Positions 23,454 to 51,538 of a stretch of 64,000 nucleotides of DNA are shown piece after piece; positions within the stretch are counted from its first letter, which is position 1, and every line of letters starts with the position of its first letter. The translations under genes and the position numbers were made by a program. This DNA comes from Hespellia sp. (lineage in GTDB: Bacteria; Bacillota; Clostridia; Lachnospirales; Lachnospiraceae). The stretch is taken from the NCBI GenBank assembly GCA_028689735.1, contig JAQVCP010000003.1, positions 37,561 through 101,560 on the forward strand, given 5' to 3'. The notes under the pieces are model-generated. The model worked only from the letters and a program-made list of their open reading frames with translations, had not been told where the DNA came from and made no database searches.

Positions 23454-23479
23454 ACATCCCTTCTATCATTATCGTTTAT

Positions 23480-25955: not shown

Positions 25956-26540
25956 CTACCGCACAACTCCGGCACTAAACAGCACCTTCCCTGTAATCCG
26001 CTCCTCGATAATTGTCCCAAAGGCACGGGAGTCATTGGAATTCTCCCGGTTATCGCCGAGAATAAAATACTTTCCATCCTCCACCGTAAGTGGATACTCG
26101 ATATTCCCTTCTTCTTCCTTCGTTACACCAAATGCATAATTCTCATCTGCTTCATTCCCATTGACCGTCAGCCTGCCATTCTTAATGTCTACCTCATCTC
26201 CAGCTGCTGCGACAATACGCTTGACATAGAACTTTCCCGAGGGCATCCTGACCGAAATCACATCTCCAGCCTCATAAGTATGATTCATCCGGGTATAAAA
26301 TACAACCTGACCATTTCTCAATGTAGGATACATGGAGTTGCCATCTACCAATGCAATTCCTACCACAAAATGAAATAGCAGATAAACAATCAGAATCACT
26401 GCCGCCATAACCACCAGATCATAGGCAATCCGCTCCTGGGTTGTCCAAAACAATCGGCGGCGATACCACGGAATCCGAGGCTCACTTATCGATAAATCAC
26501 TCTTGTGAGCTTGTCTTTTTTTCTTTCCTTCGTGCTTCAT
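25956..26540 (-). CDS. lepB: Signal peptidase I (S26A type)
   Basis: A 194-aa membrane serine protease that removes signal peptides from Sec substrates. The single N-terminal transmembrane helix is at about residues 39-62. The catalytic Ser is in GNSMYPTL (about residue 68), Lys in VKRIVAAAGD (about 105), and GDNRENSNDSR is the conserved box E. Three exported or anchored wall enzymes lie downstream, but it has its own promoter. AAGGAAAA precedes the ATG. This is the Ser-Lys type, unlike the Ser-His SipW type encoded at 28465. Confidence 0.95.
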   Translation of the reverse strand: MKHEGKKKRQAHKSDLSISEPRIPWYRRRLFWTTQERIAYDLVVMAAVILIVYLLFHFVVGIALVDGNSMYPTLRNGQVVFYTRMNHTYEAGDVISVRMPSGKFYVKRIVAAAGDEVDIKNGRLTVNGNEADENYAFGVTKEEEGNIEYPLTVEDGKYFILGDNRENSNDSRAFGTIIEERITGKVLFSAGVVR

Positions 26541-26622: not shown

Positions 26623-26728
26623 GTTCTTATTATTAAGGAAAAAATAATAAAAAAACATGCTGCTTTTTCAAAACGGTTTCATTGATAGTCAATCCGGTCA
26701 CTTCGCAGCCCATGGAGGAATCACACAC

Positions 26729-27433: not shown

Positions 27434-27450
27434 AGAAAGGAGCTACCTCC

Positions 27451-28464: not shown

Positions 28465-28989
28465 TCAGTCTTCCTCTCTCTCACGCCCCAGCACTGCCGC
28501 AACAATCTCCAACAACACTGCGATCCCGATACAACAAACTGCAAGCAGTCTGCCCCATCCCTCCGTAAACGTCTGGGCAATCCCCCCGACCACTGGCACG
28601 GACAACACTACCTTGCCGATATAATTATCATATTTGACTGGATTCATATCCTTCTCTTTATTCGCATCACCCTTTGTGATAAACTGCCCCATGTTCTTAC
28701 TGTTTGAGACCACACGATGTGTGATGATTGAAGTTGTATCCATCTCCCCATAAAATGCAATGACATCCTCCTTCTGAATGTCATCTGCCGGCAGATTCTT
28801 GATATATACAAGACTCCCTGTGGGGATTGCCGGCGCCATACTTCCACTGATTACCGTGTAAATGTGATAGCCAAATACCTTTGGAACTGTCAGTGGAATA
28901 CATGCCAAAACAAGTATTACTAGTAAAACAGTGCCCAGTACACTGCAAATCGCAGCAACTGGGCTCTTTCTATTTTTTCTTCTGCTCAA
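28465..28989 (-). CDS. sipW: SipW-type signal peptidase I (S26B)
   Basis: A 174-aa endoplasmic-reticulum/SipW-type signal peptidase. Ser is in ISGSMAP, the catalytic base is His in IITHRVV rather than Lys, and the Asp box is ITKGDAN. Two transmembrane helices flank the external core (about 12-32 and 140-162). SipW enzymes in Bacillus process TasA and TapA, which form matrix fibres. Here the gene ends a run that includes two proteins with SipW-type leaders (at 30766 and 31546), so they are its likely substrates. The start is TTG at 28989, 9 nt after AAGGGA; no ATG fits. It lies 20 nt after the MucBP-like gene. Confidence 0.92.
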   Translation of the reverse strand: MSRRKNRKSPVAAICSVLGTVLLVILVLACIPLTVPKVFGYHIYTVISGSMAPAIPTGSLVYIKNLPADDIQKEDVIAFYGEMDTTSIITHRVVSNSKNMGQFITKGDANKEKDMNPVKYDNYIGKVVLSVPVVGGIAQTFTEGWGRLLAVCCIGIAVLLEIVAAVLGREREED

Positions 28990-29009
28990 AATCAGGTTTC
29001 CCTTCCGTG

Positions 29010-29999
29010 TCAGATATCGTCACCGTTTTTCATTTTTTTCATGCCAACCAATAATGCTGCCAGAGCGATCAATGCTGCCACTCCGATAATAATACCAATT
29101 ACCAGTGGGGAAGTCCCCTGACCCTCATCCGCATCTATATTAGATGTCGGTGTATCTTCATCCAAATCCTGCAGTGCCTGAGGTGTCTGCTCGTCCGGAT
29201 TCGCTACCGTTGTGTCTCCACCTGCAATGGCATCGGCTGCAGCTGCATTTGCATCGGCTGCTGCGGCCGCCTCTGCTGGTGTCGCTGGTGTTTCCGGTGT
29301 CGCTGTAGTTCCAGCTGCAGCTCCCCCAGTCGTCCCTGCCGTTGTTCCCGCTGTAGTTCCAGCTGTAGTTTCAGCTGCTGCAGTTGTTCCTGCTGCCGGA
29401 GTCCCTACGGTAGTGACATTGGTAGTCGTTGTTGTGATTACAGTACCAGCCTCACCCGGTGTATATACAAATGTAAATACATTCTCTGCTTCATTCGAGC
29501 TGAGTGTTCCGGTCATCGCCGTTGCCTGTGGTACATATCCATCAATATATCGATATGCCACCACCGGTCTGTCTCCGATATCTCCGTAATAAGTGTTGCT
29601 CGCCTGCAAAGCATTGCCGTTTGCATCCTGATAATTTACAGTATATGCAACTCTGTTCGCTGCAATACCATAAGCAACTACATAATCTGCATCGCCTGTC
29701 ACTGGAAAGGATGAAACTGAATACACTGCATCATTGTCACGTCCGCTGAGACGTACACCCTTCACATAGTATCTGTCATCTGTCACTCTAACATCGCTTG
29801 CATCAACTGTGATCACCGCACCTGCCGAAAGACCTGACTGTACAGTTTCCGTACTTCCATCACTGAATGTACCCTTATTCCCTGTGTACAGCTTTATTGT
29901 ATACGTATAAGGCGCTGCTGCCATCACATTACCAGCCATAAGACCAAGAAGCATGCAGATTGTAAGAAATGATACGAACATCTTTTTCCATTTATTCAT
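29010..29999 (-). CDS. Surface protein with MucBP-like domain and Thr/Ala linker
   Basis: A 329-aa exported protein: signal peptide ending near NVMAAA, an N-terminal beta-rich domain (about 30-110), a MucBP-like domain (about 112-180; YTVNYQDANGNAL ... GYVPQATAMTGTL), a Thr/Ala-rich stalk with TTAGTTAGTT units, and a C-terminal transmembrane helix with a short charged tail. There is no LPXTG or TGD box before the helix, so it should stay membrane-anchored. MucBP domains bind mucin or mediate self-contact in lactobacilli and listeriae; binding here is inferred. It lies between the TGD-box protein (5 nt) and sipW (20 nt), and could tether the fibre to the cell or to mucus. Confidence 0.82.
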   Translation of the reverse strand: MNKWKKMFVSFLTICMLLGLMAGNVMAAAPYTYTIKLYTGNKGTFSDGSTETVQSGLSAGAVITVDASDVRVTDDRYYVKGVRLSGRDNDAVYSVSSFPVTGDADYVVAYGIAANRVAYTVNYQDANGNALQASNTYYGDIGDRPVVAYRYIDGYVPQATAMTGTLSSNEAENVFTFVYTPGEAGTVITTTTTNVTTVGTPAAGTTAAAETTAGTTAGTTAGTTGGAAAGTTATPETPATPAEAAAAADANAAAADAIAGGDTTVANPDEQTPQALQDLDEDTPTSNIDADEGQGTSPLVIGIIIGVAALIALAALLVGMKKMKNGDDI

Positions 30000-30004
30000 C
30001 TCGC

Positions 30005-30751
30005 CTACTCCCCTTCCTCATAACTATTTTTTCGTTTTTTCAAAGAATAGAATCCTAATACCAGAAGCACCACTCCACTTACAAGTGCGATTGCACTCAG
30101 CAGGAGGATTCTTGTGTTATCTCCGGTCTTGACTGTCTGTACCACATTTTTGACTACATTCTGTGTTGTGGCTGCCGCAACCTTCTCCACTGCGAAATTG
30201 ATCTGCAGCTTTGCAAGTGTCTGCTGGTAATTGTTTCCCTGAGTCTCACCGTCTACGGTAATCTTCAGATGAACCGAACCACTCTGGTCCTTGTTCAGTC
30301 TGTCCAGATAAAAATAATTCTCCAGAGAGCCTGTTGCCTGATGGAGTCCGGTACCATTCTCACTGGTTCCATCTCCGCCGACTGTGGTGCTGTCATACAA
30401 TACAGTCTCTGTATTAGAGCTGTTATAATATGTCAGTCTGTACTCATATCCACCGCCCGAAGCAGATGTCTTTGCATCCTCCAGTGACTGGATAACCTCA
30501 TTGGTCATATACCAGTCTGTCTGGTCCGAAGATGAGTTCTTAATCTGTACCTTCAATTCAATACTGTCACCAGGCTGGATATTCGATGCCTCATCCATCA
30601 AATCTGAAGAAGCAAAGTTCGTGTCGATCTCGCTTCCTTTAAATTCGGCAAGCCATCCGTCTTTTCCCTGGTAATCCTCTGCAAATGTTGTCATTGACAT
30701 GCCTACAACCATGATCGCTGTCATGGCAAGGCACAAAATCTTCTTTTTCAT
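30005..30751 (-). CDS. Exported surface protein with C-terminal anchor (VKTGD box)
   Basis: A 248-aa protein with a signal peptide cut near MTTFA-E that is nearly the same as the leader of the major pilin (VVGMSMTTFA against VLGMSMTTFA). The external part (about 24-205) has the look of a beta-sandwich: PGDSIELKVQIKNSS and SVHLKITVDGE. VKTGDNTR precedes a transmembrane helix and the tail LKKRKNSYEEGE. TGD-type boxes are found in front of such helices in many clostridial wall proteins and may be a sortase signal, though not a classic LPXTG. GGGAGG precedes the ATG at 30751 by 9 nt. It may anchor the SipW-processed subunits, as TapA does for TasA; that is inference from position. Confidence 0.78.
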   Translation of the reverse strand: MKKKILCLAMTAIMVVGMSMTTFAEDYQGKDGWLAEFKGSEIDTNFASSDLMDEASNIQPGDSIELKVQIKNSSSDQTDWYMTNEVIQSLEDAKTSASGGGYEYRLTYYNSSNTETVLYDSTTVGGDGTSENGTGLHQATGSLENYFYLDRLNKDQSGSVHLKITVDGETQGNNYQQTLAKLQINFAVEKVAAATTQNVVKNVVQTVKTGDNTRILLLSAIALVSGVVLLVLGFYSLKKRKNSYEEGE

Positions 30752-30765
30752 ACTTTTGTACCTCC

Positions 30766-31524
30766 CTATTGTAAGCTCAGAGTAGAGCCGTCCGATGTCA
30801 CTGTAACGCCCCATGCGCTCTTGATTGCATCCACTGCGTTATGTGTCTGAACTGCATCCACCTCTGCGTCCATTGTAAATGTGTATCCATCATAATCATA
30901 TACATATTTGATTGTATTGCCGTCCACTATCTTAGATACCTTCTCAGCAATCGAATTGTCAATTCGGATGCTGTCTGTAAGATCATTTGTTGTCTGTCCC
31001 GCTGTCAGTGCATTGGTATAGTAGAATACCTGGCGCTCATCGGTAGAAGCTGATGAATCTTCCACCCATCCACTGTTACCTGCCAGCTTCAACTCGATCA
31101 ACTCCGGCGAAAGGTCTGTATTCTTTGCGTTATCCTTCTGCCAGCTCTTTGTAATCACGACTCTTACAAATGTATCGATATTGCCACTGTTTAAGACACT
31201 CAGTTTCTCTGTGTAAGTCTTCCCCGGTACAATCTTCTCGCCATCTGCTAACATTCCGCTGAGAAGCTCGCCGTCCTGCGTCTCATCCCATGCACCATCA
31301 TCCTGATAATTCCGGTGGCTGACTGCCTTTGCCTCGCTGTCCTGCGCACCTTGTTCCATCAGTGTAACACCGATGCTGGACATATTCATCTGCGCCGTAT
31401 AATTTTCACTGTAATATGTAAGCGCCGCCCGCGCGCTTCCGACAGTACTTCCAATCAGCAGCATTGCTGATGCTGCAAGAAGCAGGGTCGGTTTTACAGG
31501 AAATGATAATTTTTTCTTCTTCAT
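30766..31524 (-). CDS. SipW-dependent TasA/camelysin-like exported protein
   Basis: A 252-aa exported protein. The leader MKKKKLSFPVKPTLLLAAS..GSTVGSARAALTYYS has the SipW-type plan, with the hydrophobic core followed by A-x-x-x-T/F-Y. After it comes a beta-sandwich-type region with NSGNIDTFVRVVI, a segment shared in kind with TasA/CalY-type proteins, and the tail NAVDAIKSAWGV. There is no C-terminal anchor, as expected for a fibre subunit that is secreted and polymerised. It lies 21 nt after the 169-aa relative, in one operon with sipW. AGGAGG is upstream of the ATG. Whether it forms a fibre is inferred from its family and neighbours. Confidence 0.85.
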   Translation of the reverse strand: MKKKKLSFPVKPTLLLAASAMLLIGSTVGSARAALTYYSENYTAQMNMSSIGVTLMEQGAQDSEAKAVSHRNYQDDGAWDETQDGELLSGMLADGEKIVPGKTYTEKLSVLNSGNIDTFVRVVITKSWQKDNAKNTDLSPELIELKLAGNSGWVEDSSASTDERQVFYYTNALTAGQTTNDLTDSIRIDNSIAEKVSKIVDGNTIKYVYDYDGYTFTMDAEVDAVQTHNAVDAIKSAWGVTVTSDGSTLSLQ

Positions 31525-31545
31525 CTTCTCTCTGCCTCCTACCTG

Positions 31546-32055
31546 TTACTCTGTACCGTCTGTTCTAATTACATGTTCCCAGTCTGGCATCGCATTGCCT
31601 TCATCATCATAGACAACCGGTGTGCATTCTTGTACGACCATAATTTCAAATGACTCTGTTGTCTGATTCTCATCATTGACCGGATATTCAAATCCTACCT
31701 GAAGCTCGGAAGGAGTTGTTGCTCCTGCTGCAAGCACCGGTCTGTAATACCAGTATCCGTCTCCGCCATCTTCCCAACCCTCTCCGGCTGTGTATGTCAC
31801 ATCAATAACCGAGAAGACCCTGACTCTGACGAAGCAGTCATAATCGCCTGTATTCTCGATCGTGATATGCTTTCCGCCTGTGTCCACATCCTCATGTGGA
31901 ACCGTCTCCGTAAATCCCATTTCCAGTGGTTTTCTTCCGCTTGCCGTAGAATACGTGGTAAAGTAAGCCATCGCACTTCCTACCGAAAGGGATGCAGTGA
32001 GCGCAAGCGCTGCGGCTGCCAGAAAAATCGGTTTTTTATTCAACTGTTTTCTCAT
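31546..32055 (-). CDS. SipW-dependent TasA-like small exported protein
   Basis: A 169-aa exported protein with leader MRKQLNKKPIFLAAAALALT and SVGSAMAYFTTYSTASG after it, a close fit to the SipW-type signal peptide with A-Y-F-T-T at the start of the mature part. ITIENTGDYDCFVRVRVFS is the beta-strand pair typical of TasA/CalY-like proteins. No anchor follows. I start at ATG 32055 rather than the GTG one codon earlier. It lies 13-16 nt after the pilin-like gene and 21 nt before the larger relative, so both probable subunits and their peptidase are in one transcript. Confidence 0.85.
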   Translation of the reverse strand: MRKQLNKKPIFLAAAALALTASLSVGSAMAYFTTYSTASGRKPLEMGFTETVPHEDVDTGGKHITIENTGDYDCFVRVRVFSVIDVTYTAGEGWEDGGDGYWYYRPVLAAGATTPSELQVGFEYPVNDENQTTESFEIMVVQECTPVVYDDEGNAMPDWEHVIRTDGTE

Positions 32056-32071
32056 CACTCATTCCCCCTTT

Positions 32072-33073
32072 TTATTGTGCTGCTCCATCTTGGTACCACT
32101 GATATTGATTGTTCTCATCCAGTCTGAAACTGTTCTCAACTCCGTGTCCGCCATTTGGTCTGCCATCGTGTGTATTGGTAAATGCAACCGATGCACTGCC
32201 ATTCGCCGGAATCAGGACTGTCTGACCGTCCACTTCACTGACTTCATAACTTGCACCACTATAAATCTCAGTTACGGTTACCGTTGCTCCTGCAGGAATT
32301 TTTTCTATGGTAACTGAATCGTTTCCTGCGCTGTTCATAGTAATCATTGCCTGTTTCTTATAAGTCTCACCTACCAGCGGAGTAATGACTGCCTCAAATA
32401 CGAAAGAAGCACTCTCACCCATTGTGATGTTCTGGTTCACCAATGTCTTATTGATTACAAGGGATCCAAACCGTGCTGTCTGCTCCGGCTTCAGGCTCAG
32501 TGCGTTCTCACCGGTAAGATGGTAGATCCACTCATCACTGCTGCTCCCAGAAGCCACATTATAATAATTGTTCGGCAGTGATACAAGATATGGTGTGAAG
32601 CTGTACTCAAAGCTTGGTGACATTGCATTCTCTGCATCCACCAGATACAGTCCCGGCTTCAAGTCTTGGATCGACGCCATTCCATTCTTGATTGTCGCTG
32701 TAATGTCTGTTGTCATCCCGTTGTCCGCCACGATCTTTGCTGCTGTCTCTGCTTTTTCACTCCAGTCTGCTGCACTCGTTTCGCTGTTTACTGATTCGAC
32801 ACCCAATTTAGAGAATTCACTCTCTGCCATATAGTTGCCAGAAGCATCAATCGATGCAACTTTGTACATCTTCACCGGTACGCTGACCGTTCCGTCATAC
32901 AATTCTTTCAAAGCCCCCGCCGTCTGGCTGCCGGCTATTGTGAAATCGATAGAACAATCCGCATCGACATCTACCGCATTCGCCGCCTGCACCTTCGGCA
33001 CTCCAACCACCGAAGCCACCAACACAAGTGCCAGTAACAATGCACTTCCTATTCTTCCTCTCTTCTTCATCAT
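32072..33073 (-). CDS. Pilin-like isopeptide-domain protein without wall anchor
   Basis: A 333-aa exported protein (signal peptide ends near KVQAAN). The N-terminal domain (about 35-190) resembles the N-terminal domain of the major pilin at 35061: VPVKMYKVASID and IQDLKPGLYLVDAEN. A second domain (about 207-310; FGSLVINKTLVNQN .. SFVFEAVIT .. FTNTHDG) is of the Cna-B/streptococcal pilin isopeptide-linkage kind. The protein ends in GGHGVENSFRLDENNQYQWYQDG without an LPXTG motif or transmembrane helix, so it cannot be a standard sortase substrate. It is encoded between the second sortase and the TasA-like genes, so it may link the two fibre types. AAGGAGG precedes the double ATG. Confidence 0.82.
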   Translation of the reverse strand: MMKKRGRIGSALLLALVLVASVVGVPKVQAANAVDVDADCSIDFTIAGSQTAGALKELYDGTVSVPVKMYKVASIDASGNYMAESEFSKLGVESVNSETSAADWSEKAETAAKIVADNGMTTDITATIKNGMASIQDLKPGLYLVDAENAMSPSFEYSFTPYLVSLPNNYYNVASGSSSDEWIYHLTGENALSLKPEQTARFGSLVINKTLVNQNITMGESASFVFEAVITPLVGETYKKQAMITMNSAGNDSVTIEKIPAGATVTVTEIYSGASYEVSEVDGQTVLIPANGSASVAFTNTHDGRPNGGHGVENSFRLDENNQYQWYQDGAAQ

Positions 33074-33131
33074 CGCATCGTATCCTCCTTCAGAATCTTA
33101 TTCGCTGGCTTTCCCATTCTTTGCTTCCCTT

Positions 33132-34037
33132 TTAATTCCTGTCATCCGTCTTTGCCTTATCCACTTCATCCAGCTTCTTATTCTTTCTGTTAAACAGGAA
33201 CCTCATTAATAGTATCACTAAAAGTGTAATTGCTAATCCAAGTATCAGATATAACATGTAATAATTCTGGACTGCTTTCAACATAGAATTCGTAACGGAA
33301 GCAGATTCTTCCTCCTCGCCATTATACGGAACCCTGATCCCCCGGACCAGAAGTCTGTGTGAGTTCACACCATAAGGAGTGCAAGTGAACAACGTCACAT
33401 AATCCTTTCCTTCTTCTATCTTAAGTGCATTTTCCAAAGTCGCGTGATCATCCTTCTCCACCATCGGGAGAATCTCATCGATCTGATAGGCAAGCACCTG
33501 ATCCAGCACATGAATATAAAACTTATCACCCTTCTCCATCTGATCAATATCAGTGAAAAGTCTCGCACTCGGGAGTCCTCTGTGTGCTGCTACCACACTG
33601 TGGGTACTCTCTCCTCCAATCGGTAAGCTGGTTCCATTGAGGTGACCAATCCCGGTCTGGAGAACCGTATCTCCTGTCCCATGATAGATGGCAAGCTTGA
33701 TGTTGATCTTCGGGATGGACAGATATCCCATGACTCCGTCCCCTGCTACATTGAGGACTTTCCAATATTCTGTTCCGGTGAGTTTATCCTCCTCGGAAGC
33801 TCCAAACACATCCGCGTAAACATCATTCTGCGTAATTGTGCTGTTAAATGCATTTGCCAGATTCCACTGCTCGGTAAAATCCTCCGGCTTCATATCGCTC
33901 ACGACTTTCTCATAGTTGCTGATCAGTTTACTCTGGCGATAGGTGTTCCATTGATTGGAAACAGTCGGATAAATAAGAATTCCAAAGCCTATCAGAAAAA
34001 CCAGACCAAACAGGATCGATGGTAGCTTTTTCTTCAT
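33132..34037 (-). CDS. srtC: Class C sortase (second of pair)
   Basis: A 301-aa pilin-polymerising sortase. It has an N-terminal transmembrane helix, the catalytic His in VVAAHRGLP, Cys in VTLFTCTPYGVN and Arg in SHRLLVRG, and a C-terminal transmembrane helix (about 262-285) typical of class C. Class C sortases join pilin Lys residues to the sorting motif of the next subunit. The lid region (YADVFGASE) lacks the exact D-P-F/W/Y form. It starts 2 nt after the stop of the first sortase, with AAGGAG in front. It shares about the same layout as its neighbour but differs in the region before the core, so a different substrate is likely. Confidence 0.93.
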   Translation of the reverse strand: MKKKLPSILFGLVFLIGFGILIYPTVSNQWNTYRQSKLISNYEKVVSDMKPEDFTEQWNLANAFNSTITQNDVYADVFGASEEDKLTGTEYWKVLNVAGDGVMGYLSIPKINIKLAIYHGTGDTVLQTGIGHLNGTSLPIGGESTHSVVAAHRGLPSARLFTDIDQMEKGDKFYIHVLDQVLAYQIDEILPMVEKDDHATLENALKIEEGKDYVTLFTCTPYGVNSHRLLVRGIRVPYNGEEEESASVTNSMLKAVQNYYMLYLILGLAITLLVILLMRFLFNRKNKKLDEVDKAKTDDRN

Positions 34038-34039
34038 AA

Positions 34040-34942
34040 TTACTCCTTCTTTGGTTCTTCTAATTCTTCCGTAACCGACTGCGCTGCTGCAGCGATACGT
34101 CTCTTCTTATCATGCAGATATAAAACGAAGATAAATCCTCCGGTAATGATAAGTCCTACAATCACCCATAACAGATAACTCGTATGAAGACTCACGCCTC
34201 CAAGTGGTGACTTCTCATCCTCCAGTGCGGTCTCTTCATATGGTACTCTGTGACCTCGCACCAAAAGTCTCTGTGAATTGACTCCGTAAGGAGTACAGGT
34301 AAGTAATGTAACCAGGTCCTGCCCTTCCTCAACTGCAAGAGCATCCGTCTCGTCTGGCTCTACTACGGAAATCTTATCGACCTGGTAGCATAACGTCTCA
34401 TCGAGAATGTGCAGCAGGAAGTGATCTCCCTTTTTCAGTTTATCCAAATCTGTAAACAGAGCTGCACTTGGCAGTCCTCTATGTGCAGAGATAACCGCAT
34501 GTGTGTTCTCGCCGCCAACCGGAAGCGAACTTCCTTCCAGATGGCCTGCTGCCTGCTGCAGTACCTTGGTGTCTGTCGTATGGTAAATCGGAAGCTTGAT
34601 GTTGATCTTCGGAATCTCCACGATTCCCATGGTTCCATCATCCGTGATATTCAGACATGACATATATGTCTGATCCTCTTCCTCACTCGCCTCTGCTATA
34701 GCAAATGAATCAGGAAGAATACTCGGTAAAAGTGCTGCGTTGTAAGCCTGCGCTTTCTTCATCTCGGCCTCGTAATCAATCTCACCGGCTGCTTCCTTAT
34801 CTGCTACTACCTGCTCGTAATTGCTAATCAGCTGCTTCTGTCTGTAATTATTCCACTGATTCGCTACGAATGGATACAGCAGTAAGGACAAACCGGCTAA
34901 AAACACTATGCAAATGATTAATGTATTTGTCTTCTTTTTCAT
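34040..34942 (-). CDS. srtC: Class C sortase (first of pair)
   Basis: A 300-aa class C sortase with N-terminal helix, catalytic His in VISAHRGLP, Cys in VTLLTCTPYGVN, Arg in SQRLLVRGHRVP and a C-terminal helix (about 252-275). The segment LLPSILPDSFAIAE before the core is the likely lid. AAGGAG lies 8 nt before the ATG. It follows the major pilin by 118 nt, a gap that holds a GC-rich hairpin, and should be expressed below the pilin level. With the pilin (LPSTG) and adhesin (LPNSG) next to it, its most likely job is polymerising the shaft. Confidence 0.93.
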   Translation of the reverse strand: MKKKTNTLIICIVFLAGLSLLLYPFVANQWNNYRQKQLISNYEQVVADKEAAGEIDYEAEMKKAQAYNAALLPSILPDSFAIAEASEEEDQTYMSCLNITDDGTMGIVEIPKINIKLPIYHTTDTKVLQQAAGHLEGSSLPVGGENTHAVISAHRGLPSAALFTDLDKLKKGDHFLLHILDETLCYQVDKISVVEPDETDALAVEEGQDLVTLLTCTPYGVNSQRLLVRGHRVPYEETALEDEKSPLGGVSLHTSYLLWVIVGLIITGGFIFVLYLHDKKRRIAAAAQSVTEELEEPKKE

Positions 34943-34995
34943 CCGGACTCTCCTTGTTGTTGTATCTTGAAATCAATTTCTAGTTTTTATATGAA

Positions 34996-35018
34996 TCCGG
35001 GGTGTTACCCACCCCGGA
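34996..35018 (-). terminator. GC-rich hairpin between major pilin and sortase genes
   Basis: Minus-strand TCCGGGGTG and CACCCCGGA make a perfect 9-bp stem with a 5-nt loop, followed by TTCATATAAAAA rather than a T-run. It could be a partial terminator or a 3' stabiliser that raises pilin mRNA over sortase mRNA. Confidence 0.5.
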
Positions 35019-35060
35019 CCAATATGTATTACTTTGAGTCAAAGACTCATACTCAACTAA

Positions 35061-36620
35061 TTACTGAGTTTTTTTGCGGCTTCTGAAGTAAAGGAATGCT
35101 GCAATGATCATGATCGCACAACCACCGATTGTGAAGATTGTTGTACCGATACCACCTGTTGATGGAAGGGAAGAAAGCTTGGTATTCTTGATTTCTGTCT
35201 CTGCATTATCCTTACCTGGTACAATGTTAGTAATCGTCTTATTCGTTGTTGGGCCATCATAGGTTGCTTCATAGGTTGATGTTGCCTTACCATCTACTTC
35301 GATTTTATAACTCTTTAATGTTCCGTCTGTGTTATACTCTGCTGAAATAACAACCGGAATCTCTTTTGGATTAACAGAATATCCTTCTGGAGCTTTTGTC
35401 TCGACGAGTGTATACTCACCTGCATCCAGTCCTGTGAATGCTAACGCACCATTCTCATCTGATACTGCGGTGTAAACTTTCTTCGTTGTTTTATTTGTCA
35501 GTGTAAATGTTGCGCCTGGAAGTGAAGTTGTTTTAACAGTTTCGCCTGCTTCGTTCTCGATTTCTCTCTCTTCACCAGTCTTTAACAATTCTTTTGTAAT
35601 TTCATTCCATGTTTCTGATGAACTACCAAACAGTTTACTGTCAATACCGAATGTGTAGGTATAAGTTTTGTCATCTGTTTTCTTCGTTTCATCTGCTTTT
35701 GACGGATTGTTTGAATACTCTAATGTTGCTGTATTTGTGTTAGGATCGAAGTTGATACCTGCCTGATCATTCAGTACTGCTGAATAAGTTACATATACAG
35801 TATCGTTTCCATGAGCAAGTGCATAGTCAGAGTTAATTGTGATTTCAAAACCTGATGCTGATTTTGTAATTGTATAGCTGTCCTCCGGAAGATTTGTTGC
35901 AATACTATCCTGAGTTAATGTTAAGCCAGTGCTTAAAGCATCAGAAATTTTAACGACTACTGTTGTATATTCTTTGCTGTATGAAGGGATTGCTGTATCG
36001 ATGCGGAATTTGACTGTATCGCCGATTGCCACATCATCACCCTTATCGCCATTGCCGCCATCAACAATGGTCTTCTCGATAGAAGGAGTTGTTGATTTTG
36101 CATATGCATCATTTGTTACAAGTGTCCAGTTAGAATTAGCATCTACCGGATCTGCGCTCATTTCGCTGTCACTACCGCTTACTGTATAAGCAACACCGAG
36201 TAACATCGGATTATAAACTTCGTTAACTGTACCATTTACTAATACCATCCAATAGCCTGGGTTTAAGTTAGCTGTGAAGCTTGCAAGCCCTTCTGTGGCA
36301 GTAGTTGTCATTGACACTGTTTTTAATCCATCTTTATTTCCTTTTGCAATTGCTGTAATCTCATCTGATGTCGGTGCGAGCGGATCTGCAATTGTAACTC
36401 CGTCTACAGTAGTATATCCTGTAAAACCTGCATCATTATAGTTCGCCTTTACTACCTGATATGCCGTTACTGTTGCTGTCGCCTCTACATTGTTTACCGT
36501 TGCTTCTTTTACGTCATTTTCTGTAGGTTTTACACCTGTTGCTGCGAATGTAGTCATGCTCATTCCCAGAACCATTGCCATAGATAAAACTAAGGCTAAA
36601 ATTTTCTTTACTTTACTCAT
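35061..36620 (-). CDS. Major pilin (SpaA-like backbone, LPSTG)
   Basis: A 519-aa sortase-dependent pilin. After the signal peptide (MSKVKKILALVLSMAMVLGM.. cut near TFA-A) come an N-terminal domain (about 27-190), an isopeptide-forming D2 domain (about 195-330; TPSIEKTIVDGGN with the likely linkage Lys), and a C-terminal SpaA/Cna-B domain (about 365-450) holding the E-box-like YTLVETKAPEGYS. LPSTGG, a transmembrane helix and RSRKKTQ follow. In Gram-positive pili such proteins form the shaft with Lys-Thr and internal Lys-Asn bonds. It lies between the adhesin and the two class C sortases, which supports the backbone role. Confidence 0.93.
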   Translation of the reverse strand: MSKVKKILALVLSMAMVLGMSMTTFAATGVKPTENDVKEATVNNVEATATVTAYQVVKANYNDAGFTGYTTVDGVTIADPLAPTSDEITAIAKGNKDGLKTVSMTTTATEGLASFTANLNPGYWMVLVNGTVNEVYNPMLLGVAYTVSGSDSEMSADPVDANSNWTLVTNDAYAKSTTPSIEKTIVDGGNGDKGDDVAIGDTVKFRIDTAIPSYSKEYTTVVVKISDALSTGLTLTQDSIATNLPEDSYTITKSASGFEITINSDYALAHGNDTVYVTYSAVLNDQAGINFDPNTNTATLEYSNNPSKADETKKTDDKTYTYTFGIDSKLFGSSSETWNEITKELLKTGEEREIENEAGETVKTTSLPGATFTLTNKTTKKVYTAVSDENGALAFTGLDAGEYTLVETKAPEGYSVNPKEIPVVISAEYNTDGTLKSYKIEVDGKATSTYEATYDGPTTNKTITNIVPGKDNAETEIKNTKLSSLPSTGGIGTTIFTIGGCAIMIIAAFLYFRSRKKTQ

Positions 36621-36743
36621 TCTTAATCTCCTTTTCTTTTTTGCGTTTTTGGTTGTAAAGTTTTTTGCTTGTTTATAATTTCTTTTTGCTACTTGTTACC
36701 TCTTTTGCGGTGCTTAAGGCCGCTGAAATGTCTTTTCATATTC

Positions 36744-39700
36744 TTATTTTTTCAGCACCCCCTCGTGTTTCTTGTTTCTATATAGAATTAGTGCTGCTGC
36801 CATCATAAGCAGTATGCCGCTAATCATATACCAGTAAATGCCAATACCGCCGGAATTTGGCAAATCATACAACGGAGTATTTTCAAATACATAGGTATAA
36901 ATTCCGTTTGCATCTCCTGAAGTGCCTTCAATTGTTTTGTCTCCACTTGTAATCGTTGGCTTCGCACCTTTGTAGGAAATTACAATATTCCATTCCTCTG
37001 TGCTCAAAGCATATCCTCCAGGTGCTTTTATTTCTTTTAGTGTATAAGTGTCAGCTTCAATTTCTGACGAAGAAACAGCCTTGTCTTTCAAGCTCCAGCT
37101 AATTACACCATTTTGATCAGACTTGCCGGTATAAACAAGTGTTTTACCATCTGTTCCTTTTTTAGTCTGTGCAGTCAATGTAAATTCGGCATTTTCAAGA
37201 TAAATAGGTGTCTGGCTAGATGTTGAACTCTCTTTTAATATCTGCCAATTGTCCACTTTTCCATTTGTAAACTTCGCAACGCCTAATGTTCCGCCATCCT
37301 TTGCGCCATATGCGTAGCTATCGGAAATAACATCTACACCTTCTTGATTCATCTTATTGCCAAGTTTAAATGTTGCAACTAAGTGGTCTGATGATAAACT
37401 GTTTTCTGTATTTGTCTCATTCTCACCAGCTCCAATAGATGCACTCAACAGTGTATATCCATCACTCTTGCTCTCTGAAACCCGATACTCACCACGCTCC
37501 AAGCCAATTAACTCAGCTAATCCTTCTTCTGATAATCCAACTTCCGTTCCTGCGTCTGTATTTGCCGGGACAACAATTGATACCGTCTTTAACAGTGAAT
37601 AAGTCCCATCGCCATTCTTCTTATCTACATCAAAGTTAAATTTCTGTTCTGTTTTGGATGTTTGCTGTAACTTCTTTGTAATCTGAATAGCACCAGAAAT
37701 TACTTTTACAGTGTAAGTGCCTGTTGCCTCAGCTAAGTTGTTCGACACATTTTTATCATCTTCACCCGCGTGATGTATCTTCCCATCAGAAGTTGTTGTG
37801 TTGTGGTTACTATCAGCTGTTGGCTCACCTGCGTTGTAAGTTACTTTCAGATAATACTTTGTATTAACATCTGTTGTAACGCCTGCCATGTCAACTGCAT
37901 TGGTACAAGCTTCGTCAGAATACCATTTGAAGATAAACTTGTCTAAAGTCACTCCTTCATACTTATCTAACCATATTCGAACATCTGCCATCTGACTCTG
38001 AATCGTTGTCGTTCCAGTCTTTGTTGTATTGGTCGGTACACTGTCGCCTTTATAGATTGTAACCTCGTAAGGTTTTACCTCTAATGTGGCTTTTACGTTA
38101 ACCGTCGGCTTCTCGAATGGAATGGATACACCATCCACCGAAACTCCCGAACCATCTCCATTGGTTGTAACCGCGTTCCCACCAATGTAATCCGCCTTGG
38201 CCTTAACCTGGAAAGTCTTGCTCCATCCTGGTGAATCATCTGTCTTTGTATATAATGTCTGATTTGTCCAAATTACATATTGACGATCATCTGAGTCGGT
38301 ATGCAGTGTACCGCCTGCTGCTGCAACGCTTACTTCATCTGCTACAAATCTCGGATCAATATAATCCTTAACAATAGCATTCTTAACGGGCACGCCATTG
38401 ATGGACTGGATGATACTCTTAAAAATACCAGTCAATGAATCAGCATCATCTGCAGTGTATGCATATTTGCTTCCGTTTTCTGCCTCTGATGCAGCCTTCT
38501 TTAATGTATTCTTTGCATTTTCCAGATTCACGTCTTGACTTACACCTAATCCCACAGAAACAGTCATTACTGTACGATTGCCCTTCTCACTAGAAGAATC
38601 TTTAATAGCAGATGCTGCATTTTCTATATCGCTAAGATCACATTTATTCGGACAACCATCTGTCAGCAGAATTACAAACTGCCTTCTCGACTGATCACTT
38701 TGATTTTTCAGCATCGTCTGTGCCGCATCCAAACCTGCTTTTTGGTTTGTTCCACTGGTTGTCTCAATGTTTGTAATTTTGCTATTGAAATCAGCTAAAT
38801 TGTTTCCCTTACCAATTTCCTGCAAATCAAAATCCTGTGAAGCTGCTTCCGAGAAAGTCACCAGTCCAACTCTGCTCTCCGGTGATGTTTCTGCCAAATC
38901 AGCGGCAAATTGCTTCGCTGCTTTGTCAAGATAGTAAAGTCTGTCATGATCATCCTTAGCTGTGTAGAAAGTGTAATCTGTATATGAATTTAAAGTACCC
39001 TTCGCACCATCTTTATATATAGCTTTAGCTACATAATCCCAACAGGAATCATCAACGTATTTCCACTGACTGTCTTCATAATAAACCCGCATAACCGTAG
39101 CCGATGCACCAGGTGCCACATAATAGTACACCTTGTTCTTATCAAGCTTTTCGATTGTACCTGTGTCATAATAGGTCAATCCGCTCCGAAAATTCATGGA
39201 ACAGGACTTATCGAAAACTAATACCACATCTACCGGTTCTACTATCGTGCTTGTCGCATTGGAGCTTGCATTCAGTGTGATATTGTATGTTCTTTCATTC
39301 CAATCGACCACCTGTGCTGTCTTGCCGGTTTCAACTGTTGAAGCCAGATTCGTATAATAATTGGAAAAAGCAAACGTCGCTGAATCTTTTTCCTTTACAC
39401 TCGTTGACACCTTATCATCCTGAACCGTTCCACCGATTACCTTCAAATCATTTTGCAGATGGTAACCTTTCACCTCTGTACCCGATTCTTCTACTTTATA
39501 TATATAGGAATCTCCATCATTCTTTATCTTCTGATTACCATATATATAAGATCCGTTTGCCGATATCGTACCATTCGCATTTGTTGTAATCGTCCAGTTC
39601 ATGTCAGATGCTTTCAGTACTGTGCCATTTTGCGGTGCATCGCTGGTTGTCGACGTAATCTTAAACTTTAAATTTGCTTTAAGTGATTCAAATTGTGCCT

Positions 39701-42700
39701 GTGTCAAGCCCTCGACACGTTTAGTAACCTGTAATGTAAACTCTCCTTTATTTGCCGGTGGAAGTTTCTGTCCGAATCCTACGTTATCAAGGAAGTTACC
39801 ATATGTGTAGGCATTTGCAGTTGTATTATTATCGTGTGCTGTAGGTCCTGATACAAAGAAGAAACGTGACATATAGCCGGTAGGAATGTAGGCATTTGTC
39901 TCTGAATAGTTACCCCACTTCTGATCATCGTCTGTATATTCTTTTACATACACGCCATTTGCCGTCTTGAAAGCTTCGTCCTTTGCCATGAGTGCTTCTA
40001 CTTCTACCTGTGTATCAATCGGATCCCCATCGTTATTTAATCCGTTTTTTGCCAGACTTGTCGGGATGATAACAACATACATGGTATCATATTCCGGATT
40101 TTTGTCAGAAACATCTCCTCTGGCCCTATGAGACAGCCAATAGTTCAACGGTGTTCCTCTGATCGTAACAACATCCTGATATAGTGCTCCCTCTGCTTCG
40201 CAATTCAGCTCTGCAAATTGAGTTCCATCCGGTATTACCTGATCACCATACCATGCATATTGCCCAAGACTTTGACCATCATTTTTACTTACGATCTCGA
40301 TATCCCATCCATCTTCCGCATCAACATTAGTCTCATACCGTGGTTTCGAAGTAGTCTGCCATACACCGCCATTCTCTCTGTACCATTTGTTTGATGTATG
40401 GTTCCAGGAATTCTTGCGATGAAATTGCGGTGTCTCAAAACTTCCGTTCTGGAGCTGATTCCAATATGTAACATTATATTCATCTGATACTGCCGCTTCT
40501 GTCTCTGTACCCTTTGCAAATGCTTTCACTTTGTATTTCACACTGGTTTGATTTTCATCACTGTTCAGTGCTCCATCGTCAAGTGCAAGATTCAACCAGG
40601 TTCCTTTTTCATCAATATTGTAATCATCTCCGGAACGTGTTCTTGTCACTTCTTTGAAGTCACGGCCATTGACACTCTTATACCACTTGAAGTCATATGC
40701 GGCTGTGTCGGTTAAACCTGCAACCTGTAACTGACCGGAATTTATGATGTCATCCGTGATAGAGATGCTTGCGGCATTTTTATTGTAGACCATGTACAGG
40801 TCAACCGTTCTTTCCTTCTTATCTTTGCTGGTTGTAACCCATTCCGTCCATGAATCTCCGGAAGTATTTTCACTATATTGAATTTTTAGATTTTTAGTAC
40901 CATCGTTCTGATATTGCAATCTTTTGATTTGAGTTCCATCATGGGCATCCTTCTTTGCTCCAACAAAGGTATAACCCTTGATTTCTTTCTGATAAGTACT
41001 CAAATTAATCACATCATTGTTGTTTGTTGTGCCTGTTATATTCTCCTGTTCTACCAGTGACTCAGAAATTTCCTTATTCTTTGTGCCATCCCAGTAATGC
41101 ACTGTTGCAACAATCTTTCTGCTGCCTCGTGTCCAGGTGATTGTAAAAGTAGAAAAACTGTCTGTTACGAATTCTGCTTTTGTAACCTTCGTAGCATCCG
41201 TGGTTTCTACCGTAGCTTCCTGGGTATCATCGGCTACCATATCAACTACATCTTTGACCTCGCCCTTTTTGTTTTCCTCCAGGTGCATAACCGTTACATC
41301 CAGGCTTGCATCCTCGGATGAATCAACTTCCTCTGGAATCGCTTCTTGCTTGTAGTCGATGACTACTTTTACATTTCCGTTTGGTTCTACCTTGTTACCA
41401 TCTTTGTCGATAAAGCTGATATCATAAGCGAGGAAACCTGCGATGTCGTAATCTTCATTCTCTGCTTTTTCCTCCAGCTGAGTTTTTACTTTTTCATACT
41501 CATCCGCTGTACTTTCTGGTGTAATCACTTTCGCTTCTGAGGTAGCTTTGCCAGTTAATGAAATGTCTGTTGCTGCTTTCCGCTCCGGTACTGCAATTGT
41601 TGAAGCAGATGTAACATCTGACTGTGTGTCCGGTAAGATTGGAATAACCTGAAGTGTTGCTCCCTCTGGAATAATTCCTTTCTGATCTGCACTTACAGTT
41701 ACGGTTACATCATCATTTTCATATTTAAGTGAATCTGTTGCTTTTGCAGGCTCATCTGTTGCTGCATTCTTACCTGCTGTATTTGAACCACCCTCCGTAA
41801 CAGTTTCATCTGTTGCCGGCTCTTCCGATGGCTGCTCTGTCAAATAACATCCGTAGATTGTGGAATATCTTCCTTCCATCTGAATCTTCTGTGCTGTGCC
41901 ATCTTCATTCAATGTGATCTCGGATAAATCATAATCGTTATCGATTGTGTCGATGCTCTGACCTGCGTTCTGAAGTTCTTCCACCTTGTCAGATCTCTGA
42001 GTGATTCCAACAATCTGTGCTTCGGCGTTACCTGCCGATGAGTTCGCTTCATTATAATAGAAAACTGTTGATTTCTTTGTATCGCCAATCTGAAAATCTT
42101 TCTGTTCAAATGTAAGCTTGATTTCTTTTCCAGGTTCTACTTGCTTGCCATTCACCTTGAAGCTTACATTATATAAGAAATAGCTTCCAAGAACTTTACC
42201 TTCTTCTAAGGATTTTTCCATCAGTGTTTTGACTGTATCTTCTGTCTCTTTCTGAGCTGCTGTTACTTCCATCGTAACTTCGGAAGTCTTTGCTGTGAAT
42301 GTTCCTTCCGGAACGTTCGCTGTAACTGTACTGATCACATTTCCATCAGTATCTTTAACATCCGCCTTAAGCTCTACTGCTTCCTGCTGGGTTGTTGTTT
42401 TGTCTTTATCTTCCGTCGTGTAGATGGTTTCGTCTTTCTTGCCGCCATCTGTTACGGTCTCATTTTCCGCTGATTCATTTTCAGTCGGCTCACTTACTGC
42501 TGGCTCCTGTGGCTTATCTTCTGTAATGTAGCAGCCGTAGATCGTGCAGCGTCTTCCTTCCATCTGAATCTTCTGTGCTGTGCCATCCTCGTTCAATGTG
42601 ATTTCTGACAAATCGTAATCGTCAATATGCTCTGTGCTCTCTCCTGCATTTTGAAGCTGTTCCATCTTGTCGGACTTCTGTGTGATTCCAACGATCTCTG

Positions 42701-43406
42701 CTTCGGCATTGCCTGCCGGTGAGTTTGCCTCATTGTAATAGAAGGTTGTTGCTTTCTTTGTATCACCAATCTGGAAATTCTTCTGTTCAAATGTGATGCT
42801 GATTTCCCGGCCCGGCTCCACCTGCTCTCCGTTCACCTTGAAGCTTACATTATATAGGAAGTAACTTCCAAGGACTTTATCCTCTGCTAAGGATTTTTCC
42901 ATCAGTGCTTTGACTGCATCTGTTGTCTCTGTCTGAACCGCCGTAACCTCCATTGTCACTTCAGAAGTATTTGCTGCAAATGTCCCTTCCGGGATATTCG
43001 CTGTGACTGTGCAGATTGCATTTCCATCGGCATCAACGAGTACATTTCCATCAGCATCCTTGATGTCTTCCTTAAGCTCCATAGCTTCCTGATGCGGTGA
43101 CTCCTCTGTCACTGTCGGCTCGCTATGTACCTGAGCTTCTGCTGCCGTGTTATCTGTCGCTGCTTCATCTGTTGTTGCCGCTTCTGTCTCCGGTGTTGTC
43201 TCCGCTGTACCCGTACCTGTTGTTTCCGCTGTTCCAGCCTGTTCACCCGTAACGGTTGTCTCGTCCTGTGCTTCCTTGCCGGCTCCTTCACTGCTAATCT
43301 CATCTGCGTTAAAACTATCTATTAGAAGTGATGGGACGCTTCCGCCAAGCACGAGCACCATGCAAAGCACAAACGCTATGATTCTTCTCTTCCTACTACT
43401 TTTCAT
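36744..43406 (-). CDS. Giant VWA-domain pilus tip adhesin (2220 aa, LPNSG)
   Basis: A very large exported protein with signal peptide (MKSSRKRRIIAFVLCMVLVL..), a Thr/Glu-rich linker, and two near-identical domains at about residues 108-297 and 345-527 with a weaker third copy near 550-690. Then come a jelly-roll-type region (about 970-1200; NGSFETP .. FAELNCEAEGALYQDV) and a von Willebrand A domain (about 1390-1670) with a complete MIDAS start, DKSCSMN. C-terminal Cna-B/SpaA-type repeats end in LPNSGG, a helix and RNKKHEG. Such VWA proteins sit at pilus tips and bind host ligands. It starts inside the end of the small upstream gene (11-nt overlap) behind GAAGGAGG. The sorting motif differs from the pilin's LPSTG. 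Confidence 0.9.
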   Translation of the reverse strand: MKSSRKRRIIAFVLCMVLVLGGSVPSLLIDSFNADEISSEGAGKEAQDETTVTGEQAGTAETTGTGTAETTPETEAATTDEAATDNTAAEAQVHSEPTVTEESPHQEAMELKEDIKDADGNVLVDADGNAICTVTANIPEGTFAANTSEVTMEVTAVQTETTDAVKALMEKSLAEDKVLGSYFLYNVSFKVNGEQVEPGREISITFEQKNFQIGDTKKATTFYYNEANSPAGNAEAEIVGITQKSDKMEQLQNAGESTEHIDDYDLSEITLNEDGTAQKIQMEGRRCTIYGCYITEDKPQEPAVSEPTENESAENETVTDGGKKDETIYTTEDKDKTTTQQEAVELKADVKDTDGNVISTVTANVPEGTFTAKTSEVTMEVTAAQKETEDTVKTLMEKSLEEGKVLGSYFLYNVSFKVNGKQVEPGKEIKLTFEQKDFQIGDTKKSTVFYYNEANSSAGNAEAQIVGITQRSDKVEELQNAGQSIDTIDNDYDLSEITLNEDGTAQKIQMEGRYSTIYGCYLTEQPSEEPATDETVTEGGSNTAGKNAATDEPAKATDSLKYENDDVTVTVSADQKGIIPEGATLQVIPILPDTQSDVTSASTIAVPERKAATDISLTGKATSEAKVITPESTADEYEKVKTQLEEKAENEDYDIAGFLAYDISFIDKDGNKVEPNGNVKVVIDYKQEAIPEEVDSSEDASLDVTVMHLEENKKGEVKDVVDMVADDTQEATVETTDATKVTKAEFVTDSFSTFTITWTRGSRKIVATVHYWDGTKNKEISESLVEQENITGTTNNNDVINLSTYQKEIKGYTFVGAKKDAHDGTQIKRLQYQNDGTKNLKIQYSENTSGDSWTEWVTTSKDKKERTVDLYMVYNKNAASISITDDIINSGQLQVAGLTDTAAYDFKWYKSVNGRDFKEVTRTRSGDDYNIDEKGTWLNLALDDGALNSDENQTSVKYKVKAFAKGTETEAAVSDEYNVTYWNQLQNGSFETPQFHRKNSWNHTSNKWYRENGGVWQTTSKPRYETNVDAEDGWDIEIVSKNDGQSLGQYAWYGDQVIPDGTQFAELNCEAEGALYQDVVTIRGTPLNYWLSHRARGDVSDKNPEYDTMYVVIIPTSLAKNGLNNDGDPIDTQVEVEALMAKDEAFKTANGVYVKEYTDDDQKWGNYSETNAYIPTGYMSRFFFVSGPTAHDNNTTANAYTYGNFLDNVGFGQKLPPANKGEFTLQVTKRVEGLTQAQFESLKANLKFKITSTTSDAPQNGTVLKASDMNWTITTNANGTISANGSYIYGNQKIKNDGDSYIYKVEESGTEVKGYHLQNDLKVIGGTVQDDKVSTSVKEKDSATFAFSNYYTNLASTVETGKTAQVVDWNERTYNITLNASSNATSTIVEPVDVVLVFDKSCSMNFRSGLTYYDTGTIEKLDKNKVYYYVAPGASATVMRVYYEDSQWKYVDDSCWDYVAKAIYKDGAKGTLNSYTDYTFYTAKDDHDRLYYLDKAAKQFAADLAETSPESRVGLVTFSEAASQDFDLQEIGKGNNLADFNSKITNIETTSGTNQKAGLDAAQTMLKNQSDQSRRQFVILLTDGCPNKCDLSDIENAASAIKDSSSEKGNRTVMTVSVGLGVSQDVNLENAKNTLKKAASEAENGSKYAYTADDADSLTGIFKSIIQSINGVPVKNAIVKDYIDPRFVADEVSVAAAGGTLHTDSDDRQYVIWTNQTLYTKTDDSPGWSKTFQVKAKADYIGGNAVTTNGDGSGVSVDGVSIPFEKPTVNVKATLEVKPYEVTIYKGDSVPTNTTKTGTTTIQSQMADVRIWLDKYEGVTLDKFIFKWYSDEACTNAVDMAGVTTDVNTKYYLKVTYNAGEPTADSNHNTTTSDGKIHHAGEDDKNVSNNLAEATGTYTVKVISGAIQITKKLQQTSKTEQKFNFDVDKKNGDGTYSLLKTVSIVVPANTDAGTEVGLSEEGLAELIGLERGEYRVSESKSDGYTLLSASIGAGENETNTENSLSSDHLVATFKLGNKMNQEGVDVISDSYAYGAKDGGTLGVAKFTNGKVDNWQILKESSTSSQTPIYLENAEFTLTAQTKKGTDGKTLVYTGKSDQNGVISWSLKDKAVSSSEIEADTYTLKEIKAPGGYALSTEEWNIVISYKGAKPTITSGDKTIEGTSGDANGIYTYVFENTPLYDLPNSGGIGIYWYMISGILLMMAAALILYRNKKHEGVLKK

Positions 43407-43614
43407 GGCTTCCTCCTTCTTTCCCTTCTATTACTTGATCTTTGTCTAATGCGCCATCAATCATCTTCAGTAGCTCCAAGGCGCTTCGAAAATACTGTTC
43501 CTTATGTTCATCGACCCATGTCACACTCCCCTGCCAGGTTGCATTTTGTCGTTCTAGAACCTTTACTATAAAAGTACCTGTTCTTTTTTCACCTGCGCTC
43601 ATACAGTTTTCCAT
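43396..43614 (-). CDS. Small WQG-family protein upstream of the adhesin
   Basis: A 72-aa soluble protein that I do not recognise by name. Its core (FIVKVLERQNATWQGSVTW .. FRSALELLKMIDGAL) clearly matches the C-terminal half of the 151-aa protein at 46952 (RQNSCWQGEAEW .. FLSVLEWLKIVNNSL), so the two are one family. It overlaps the adhesin start by 11 nt, which suggests translational coupling and a function tied to the adhesin, for example as a regulator or folding helper. The start is uncertain: AGAAGG lies close to ATG 43614 and MSAGEK four codons later is an alternative. A weak -10 (TATAAT, 43648-43643) lies just upstream. Confidence 0.7.
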   Translation of the reverse strand: MENCMSAGEKRTGTFIVKVLERQNATWQGSVTWVDEHKEQYFRSALELLKMIDGALDKDQVIEGKEGGSHEK

Positions 43615-45347: not shown

Positions 45348-45473
45348 GCTTTCTTCCTCCATTATAATTGAACGGTGAAGTAAACACAACAGAAACCACG
45401 TAAGATTCCCACTGTATTTGCTTCAAAAATAAAAGGGTAACTTCGGCGATATGCCGGAAAAAACTTAGATCCT

Positions 45474-45533
45474 CCGAATAGAACTTCGGATGAATGTAAT
45501 TCAAACTATATCATATGTAGATATCTGTTGCAA
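45474..45533 (-). promoter_or_regulatory. Promoter and leader hairpin of Rpn copy A
   Basis: Minus-strand TTGCAA (45533-45528), 17-bp spacer, TATAGT (45510-45505). Shortly after the expected start the RNA has CCGAAGTTCTATTCGG (45489-45474), a 5-bp hairpin. The same arrangement occurs at copy B and at the truncated gene at 58361. Confidence 0.75.
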
Positions 45534-45576
45534 CGAAAGAATACTGCCATTTCAAAACTTTGCCCTTGCTTCAGCA

Positions 45577-45637
45577 AAAAAGCTCCACTGGAATGATGTC
45601 GCAACATTAACGGACATCCTCTCCGGCGGAGCTTTTT
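45577..45637 (-). terminator. Terminator-like hairpin between the two Rpn copies
   Basis: AAAAAGCTCCACTGGA and CTCCGGCGGAGCTTTTT form an imperfect stem. It ends copy B on the minus strand and lies just upstream of the copy A promoter. Confidence 0.65.
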
Positions 45638-45662
45638 CTCTTTTTTCTTTATCGATTTCGCT

Positions 45663-46634: not shown

Positions 46635-46759
46635 GCTTTCTTCCTCCATTATAATTGAACGGTGAAGTAAACACAACAGAAACCACGTAAGATTCCCACT
46701 GTATTTGCTTCAAAAATAAAAGGGTAACTTCGGCGATATGCCGGAAAAATTTAGATCCT

Positions 46760-46951: not shown

Positions 46952-47407
46952 TTATTTCTTTTCTGTATATATTTCCAGGCTGTTGTTCACAATCTTAAGC
47001 CATTCCAGCACGCTGAGAAACTCTTCGGTACTGCCGCCTTCGATCCATTCTGCTTCACCCTGCCAGCAGGAATTCTGACGAAACTTTACATACAAAAGAA
47101 ATGTGGCAATCTGTCCACGTTTTTTCGCAATTTCCTCAGTAGTTGTCACTTTTATCCAGTCAATCTTTCTCTTTGGCTCCTGCTGAATAAATGTACGGGT
47201 TTTCGTCGATGCCTGAGGGAAAGAGATTCCATCAAAAAAATCTTCAATTATTTCAATTAGCTGAATGACATTTGCAAATGTCTGCGGTTTTTCATTGTAA
47301 CAATGAAAAATTCGTCCCGAAGCTTCCCCTGCATCGTATGCATCAATACAGACACTCAGAATATTCGGTGCGTGCAAAGCAGTATGTCTATTATCGTTCT
47401 GCTCCAT
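46952..47407 (-). CDS. WQG-family protein beside the BTAD regulator
   Basis: A 151-aa soluble protein. The N-terminal half (about 14-60) has its own motif, VCIDAYDAGEASGRIFHCYN. The C-terminal half (about 98-148) matches the 72-aa protein before the adhesin: FLLYVKFRQNSCWQGEAEWIE with FLSVLEWLKIVNNSL. I know no assigned function for this family; the short version next to an adhesin and the long version next to a pilus regulator suggest an accessory or regulatory role in surface expression. GGAAGGAATTAT precedes the ATG. It lies 132 nt downstream of the BTAD gene and may be co-transcribed with it. Confidence 0.75.
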   Translation of the reverse strand: MEQNDNRHTALHAPNILSVCIDAYDAGEASGRIFHCYNEKPQTFANVIQLIEIIEDFFDGISFPQASTKTRTFIQQEPKRKIDWIKVTTTEEIAKKRGQIATFLLYVKFRQNSCWQGEAEWIEGGSTEEFLSVLEWLKIVNNSLEIYTEKK

Positions 47408-50019: not shown

Positions 50020-50039
50020 ACAAGAAAGGACAAAAGTCT

Positions 50040-51523: not shown

Positions 51524-51538
51524 AGGAGGCATAGATTG

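Follow-up and report, generated by a model that had tools for sequence, protein, structure and literature searches.

Introduction

Sortase-assembled pili and TasA-type fibres are usually treated as separate routes by which Gram-positive bacteria build surface structures. In sortase pili of the SpaA type, the lysine of a pilin motif receives the threonine of the neighbouring subunit; some known sortase pili have no base pilin. In TasA filaments, the N-terminal strand of one subunit inserts into the next, and TapA starts the filament (PMC9674648, PMC10151520), while the TasA/CalY/CapP system of B. cereus has been described as sortase-independent (PMC13082335). In C. perfringens, srtB flanks sipW-bsaABCRSD, and its deletion left the BsaA polymers unchanged (PMC7395162), a case that may be read both as a precedent for such a neighbourhood and as a warning against assuming that a sortase acts on the fibre. 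The open-access literature, which takes in few subscription papers and no preprints, yielded no earlier description of a joint SipW/TasA/camelysin and sortase-pilus locus.

The window, by which we mean the whole 64,000-nt stretch of DNA analysed here, contains a surface-fibre locus of ten genes, all on the minus strand, running from 43406 to 28465 in the order VWA adhesin, major pilin, two class C sortases (srtC), P333, tasA1, tasA2, P248, P329 and sipW. Like the class C pili of the SpaA/SpaD/SpaH and EbpC type, it encodes a VWA tip protein with an LPXTG signal, an LPXTG major pilin with isopeptide domains, and class C sortases; unlike them, it has at the place of the base subunit a protein, P333, with the lysine but no sorting signal, and the putative operon continues into a SipW/TasA set. 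With B. subtilis tapA-sipW-tasA and B. cereus TasA/CalY/CapP the locus shares a SipW-type peptidase, subunits with SipW leaders and a dedicated surface protein; however, no TapA or CapP was recognised in it, its subunits resemble BsaA (below the curated cut-off), and the base of its fibre carries a sorting-like signal. BsaA-like SipW-dependent proteins, extra secreted proteins and a nearby sortase gene (srtB) are likewise found at C. perfringens sipW-bsaABCRSD, whereas class C pilus genes have not been reported there and srtB is dispensable for the polymers (PMC7395162). Finally, the C. perfringens VR-10B pilus and the streptococcal FCT pili also combine a signal-peptidase homologue and a sortase in the pilus operon, together with a base pilin bearing the sortase-B-type signal TIGR03063 (PMC8088525), but TasA-like subunits have not been reported for them, and FCT SipA/LepA is catalytically inactive (PMC7900414).

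Gene content and spacing of the locus

An earlier note on this DNA had named ten genes on one strand at this place, and Pfam, NCBIfam and the open reading frames account for all of them. The first encodes a giant VWA/SpaA adhesin of 2220 aa (36744..43406; Pfam VWA 7.9e-14, SpaA 3.8e-11), the predicted pilus tip, with an LPNSG sorting motif (36849..36863) and a TIGR01167 match over the NCBIfam cut-off at residues 2182-2214. The major pilin (519 aa; 35061..36620) matches TIGR04226, an RrgB-type isopeptide domain (6e-19), as well as SpaA and GramPos_pilinBB, and has an LPSTG sorting motif (35154..35168); LPXTG is present in 79 of its 80 homologues, and K175 and K183, the candidates for its junction lysine, are nearly invariant. 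The two class C sortases (34040..34942 and 33132..34037), out of seven sortases in the genome, score 289 and 270 bits against NF033745 (cut-off 160).

The gaps from the second sortase to sipW measure 58, 13, 21, 14, 5 and 20 nt, which bears out the earlier description of them as mostly under 25 nt (five of the six span 5-21 nt, with one of 58), and both gaps flanking the major pilin gene are about 120 nt. Within the locus region, neither terminator-like sites (8, against 10.0 in shuffles) nor promoter-like sites exceeded shuffled sequence, and an Rfam search of 22000-52000 found no riboswitch or other RNA.

TasA1 (31546..32058) and TasA2 (30766..31524) were read as fibre subunits with SipW-type leaders. 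Both match TIGR04090, the 'BsaA family SipW-dependent biofilm matrix protein' (TasA1 E=3e-4, 20.6 bits; TasA2 E=9e-10, 38.6 bits), but both fall below its curated cut-off of 60 bits. At E<=1e-3, the same family is matched by 20 of 31 TasA1 homologues and 32 of 35 TasA2 homologues. The predicted mature N-terminus of TasA1 is AYFTTY; TasA2 has disordered residues 26-46 after the leader, followed by a beta-rich domain, and its fold match to TasA 8aur (E=0.013, prob 0.91) is suggestive only. Sequence-profile searches of the PDB with TasA1, TasA2 and P248 found no relative, so that membership of the TasA family rests on the sub-threshold family matches, the leader, the presence of SipW and the weak fold match. 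One related locus (L094) has a natural tasA1-tasA2 read-through.

The SipW-type signal peptidase (28465..28989) scores 90 bits against TIGR02228 (cut-off 51.85), is the only gene of the genome above that cut-off, and lies below the cut-off of the Bacillus-specific NF046067. Its catalytic Ser and His motifs (SGSMxP and THR) are kept, which bears on a reading that we regard as highly improbable, namely that SipW and the TasA-like proteins have an accessory role in pilus assembly, in the manner of the inactive streptococcal SipA/LepA, and build no fibre of their own. Streptococcal pilus operons do encode a signal-peptidase homologue that is needed for assembly, but SipA/LepA lacks the catalytic residues (PMC7900414) that the SipW of the window retains, and sets of SipW, TasA-like proteins, P248 and P329 occur without any pilus.

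Recurrence in other genomes

The gene order of the locus recurs in other Lachnospiraceae. With tasA2 as the seed, a scan that took one genome from each species found 80 related loci, mainly in this family, and annotation with profiles built here shows that most have the order VWA[LPXTG]-pilin[LPXTG]-srtC-(srtC)-P333-tasA1-tasA2-P248-P329-sipW. That 80 loci of other species are for the most part ordered in the same way argues that the ten-gene order is not due to chance; since they were gathered by tasA2 similarity, however, the sample is biased towards loci like that of the window, and the count overstates how general the pairing is among SipW loci. Carriers include Eubacterium ramulus ATCC 29099 (L037), Coprococcus comes (L045), Blautia parvula (L051) and Acetatifactor muris (L058), and, outside the main group, Faecalibacillus intestinalis (L039; class Erysipelotrichia) and Neglectibacter (L052, L093); L084 lies on an Eggerthellaceae contig of 60% GC, where an EF-G-like gene adjoins the locus. 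Median gaps from srtC to sipW across the related loci range from -4 to 20 nt. Among 60 relatives, a protein search detected P248 in 11, or in 12 of 61 genomes once the window's own is counted, and several of these have the entire ten-gene order.

Gene order and mostly small gaps together imply a single unit, and the view that the sortase-pilus and SipW/TasA genes form one conserved unit, which may be co-transcribed, is strongly supported by gene order. The earlier proposal that the two machineries are one unit thus agrees with a gene order kept in dozens of species, but the unit as drawn there appears incomplete, leaving out two minus-strand genes that recur beside related loci: a BTAD/SARP-type gene (47540..48784; BTAD 4.4e-16), the probable regulator of the locus, and the gene of a 151-aa protein (46952..47407; no Pfam match) that recurs with it. 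On the other side, an ordinary type I signal peptidase gene (25956..26540, minus strand; Peptidase_S26 1.9e-35) adjoins the locus, and a Lep-type gene is also found beside many related loci.

Several further features of the neighbourhood may be recorded. Adjoining the BTAD gene, at 49060-54100, we read from the sequence a type IV pilus-like cluster with transglutaminase-like lipoprotein, PilC-type, PilT-type and pseudopilin-like genes; a similar cluster (L021:2310-7215) stands beside the BTAD gene at a SipW locus that lacks sortases, in another genus, as if different fibre modules occupied the same slot. Downstream of sipW, on the opposite strand, lie GGDEF and sigma-like genes (26657-28392), a pair that also adjoins sipW in several relatives (e.g., L035, L038 and the copy of L047). 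Between the BTAD/151-aa pair and the adhesin are two nearly identical tandem genes (44328-46676; 353 and 337 aa), possibly an insertion; a Pfam search with one of them gave no confident match. Two tandem secreted NlpC/P60-like proteins are encoded at 21367-25837, the second with a long STDKKDD-type repeat.

A pilin with an acceptor-type lysine and no sorting signal

P333 (32072..33073; 333 aa; DUF5979/CnaB-like), the proposed adapter between pilus and TasA fibre, begins with a pilin domain, continues with a CnaB-like domain in which the triad K209/E269/N300 is invariant, and ends in a tail. Its AlphaFold model has a pLDDT of 86, and the top Foldseek matches are mostly proteins of sortase pili, led by streptococcal two-domain pilins. 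Pilins have an LPXTG motif and a C-terminal hydrophobic segment, whereas both are absent from P333, and 97% of its homologues lack such a segment; the homologues in L048, L050 and L061, of 481-503 aa, continue beyond the tail with an additional C-terminal membrane segment.

At the junction of the two domains, and separate from the triad, stands Lys195 (codon 32489..32491), the predicted acceptor lysine for sortase C, which is invariant in 72 of 72 sequences. The P333 profile pairs it with the pilin-motif lysine of Corynebacterium SpaD (4hss) and SpaA (3hr6, 7k7f), with the preceding tryptophan also in register, and comparison with the profile of the window's own pilin family pairs it with the conserved lysine of that family. 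Of the two features of a class C base subunit, a lysine and a sorting signal, P333 therefore has the lysine only; it could accept a pilus, but could not hand it to the wall by way of a sortase.

With P333 as query (E<=1e-30), 399 genomes of the phylum gave a match only in the genome of the window, which points to a system concentrated in one family. Among 397 genomes of the family, about 29 gave strong matches (E<1e-40); weaker matches mostly span no more than the first domain of the pilin type or individual CnaB domains.

The tail of P333 and its reuse in adhesins

The C-terminal hairpin tail of P333 (GGxGVxNxF...W; 32090..32152) is predicted to dock into the TasA fibre. Residues 308-318 (GGHGVENSFRL) are conserved more than the first pilin domain, G309 and N314 are invariant (35 of 35), and AlphaFold models the hairpin with moderate confidence (pLDDT about 65). 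Of 85 stand-alone P333 proteins, 82 carry a loose motif, [VILMAS]xNx[FYIL], in the last 60 residues, the exceptions being L048, L050 and L061; its frequency is 18% in shuffled tails and likewise in other ORFs. A stricter pattern, which matched 18 of the 85, was judged too strict.

In seven loci, an adhesin of 1072-3436 aa, encoded directly before tasA1, ends in the second domain and tail of P333. These loci (L024; L055, L059 and L063, of one lineage; L119 and L120, of one genome; and L121) represent about four lineages, and the last three (L119, L120 and L121) were retrieved to put the idea to the test and agreed with it. Pilin, sortase C and LPXTG are absent from all seven cassettes; L121 belongs to a tandem array, and pilus genes are present in the cassette next to it. 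In the set of P333 genes examined, a srtC lies within three ORFs upstream of 80 of 86 stand-alone copies but of none of the seven fused ones (Fisher p 2e-7, uncorrected for kinship). The stand-alone genes without a sortase just upstream are those of L047, L066, L078, L084 and L127 and one of the two in L124. Adhesins with a similar C-terminal pattern are also encoded at the distant pilus-free SipW loci L021, L025-L028 and L122, and, by visual reading and outside the 60-residue window, at the pilus-free L123. The tail is most simply read as a plug into the TasA-type fibre, carried directly by the adhesin or, where the adhesin sits on a pilus, by P333. In L127 (3824-10411), a VWA adhesin with LPHTG immediately precedes P333 and neither a pilin nor a sortase C gene adjoins it, an arrangement that would suit direct linkage of adhesin to adapter.

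These fusions weigh on two other accounts of the locus. One operon might specify two structures that are co-regulated and merely needed together, a sortase pilus of the classical kind and a TasA-type fibre independent of it. C. perfringens makes BsaA polymers even when the adjacent srtB is absent, and recombinant BsaA polymerises alone (PMC7395162), which would fit such an arrangement, as would the existence of SipW/TasA loci without any pilus; it leaves aside, however, that P333 keeps an acceptor-type lysine while having no sortase route to the wall, and that its tail domain is fused to adhesins in pilus-free TasA cassettes, and we consider it unlikely. Distinctly improbable, in our estimate, is that P333 acts as a terminator, which would cap the pilus through Lys195 and, having no signal, release it, with TasA forming a separate matrix fibre: a lysine without a sorting signal is what a terminator would need, but the invariant tail, its reuse in sortase-less adhesins and the constant place of P333 before tasA1 would go unexplained.

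Probable anchoring of the fibre

P248 (30005..30751; 248 aa, with a transmembrane segment), the candidate base protein of the fibre, most likely starts at 30751 rather than at the longer mechanical ORF start. It matches TIGR03063, a sortase-B-type sorting domain, at 20.2 bits (cut-off 18.15), as do 7 of 30 homologues, and has a sorting-like VKTGD motif (30119..30133) with a conserved KTGD core; the C-termini of the homologues mostly read x[VIP][KRQ]TGD followed by a membrane segment, with LPxTGD in some. The signal recognised by class B sortases is NPQTN, to which the NPNTGD, NPRTGD and NPQTGD motifs of P248 in one genome (L121, L124) are close.

That genome also has a SipW-SrtB fusion: in L124, as in L085, a single protein exceeds the cut-offs of both TIGR02228 (signal peptidase) and TIGR03064 (class B sortase), and L074 and L075 are built alike, but their sortase part falls just short of the cut-off. 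A class B sortase is also found near L026, L052 and L078; the genome of the window has four over the cut-off, all at other loci. The fusions, together with the class B-like signals of P248, tie export of the SipW fibre to the attachment of P248 to the wall, a step in which a class B sortase probably takes part. L124 and L121 share one contig (G179:C14), where three or more pilus/TasA cassettes stand in tandem together with the SipW-SrtB fusion gene.

P329 (29010..29999), a transmembrane protein containing MucBP (23.5 bits, cut-off 23), is a probable membrane base protein; a C-terminal transmembrane segment is present in 99% of its homologues.

A proposed composite fibre

From gene content, order, conservation, fusions and sorting signals we infer a physical composite, and we lean slightly towards the view that the locus builds one composite surface fibre. 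Indirect support comes from the signal-less pilin with its invariant acceptor-type lysine, the tail fusions in sortase-less loci and the SipW-SrtB fusions. The class C sortases, acting solely on the pilus and P333, would join the VWA adhesin at the tip to a shaft of LPSTG pilin, and the chain would end with transfer of the last pilin to Lys195 of P333. Since P333 has no sorting signal, a sortase could not fix it to the wall; its hairpin tail would instead dock into the fibre of TasA1 and TasA2 subunits released by the SipW of the locus, and the base of that fibre would be held by P248, with its class B-type sorting signal, and the membrane protein P329. More tentatively, and at somewhat less than even chances, we propose a fuller version, in which the pilus is covalently capped by the adapter pilin, whose tail would plug by strand complementation into a non-covalent SipW/TasA fibre anchored to the wall by a class B sortase.

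Such a composite, if true, would offer a concrete way for a TasA-type fibre to bear an adhesin and to be held at the wall. The joint locus, found in common gut commensals (Eubacterium ramulus, Coprococcus comes, Blautia), would represent a new kind of architecture for contact with the host and for biofilms, and gut bacteria may build a previously undescribed two-part hair.
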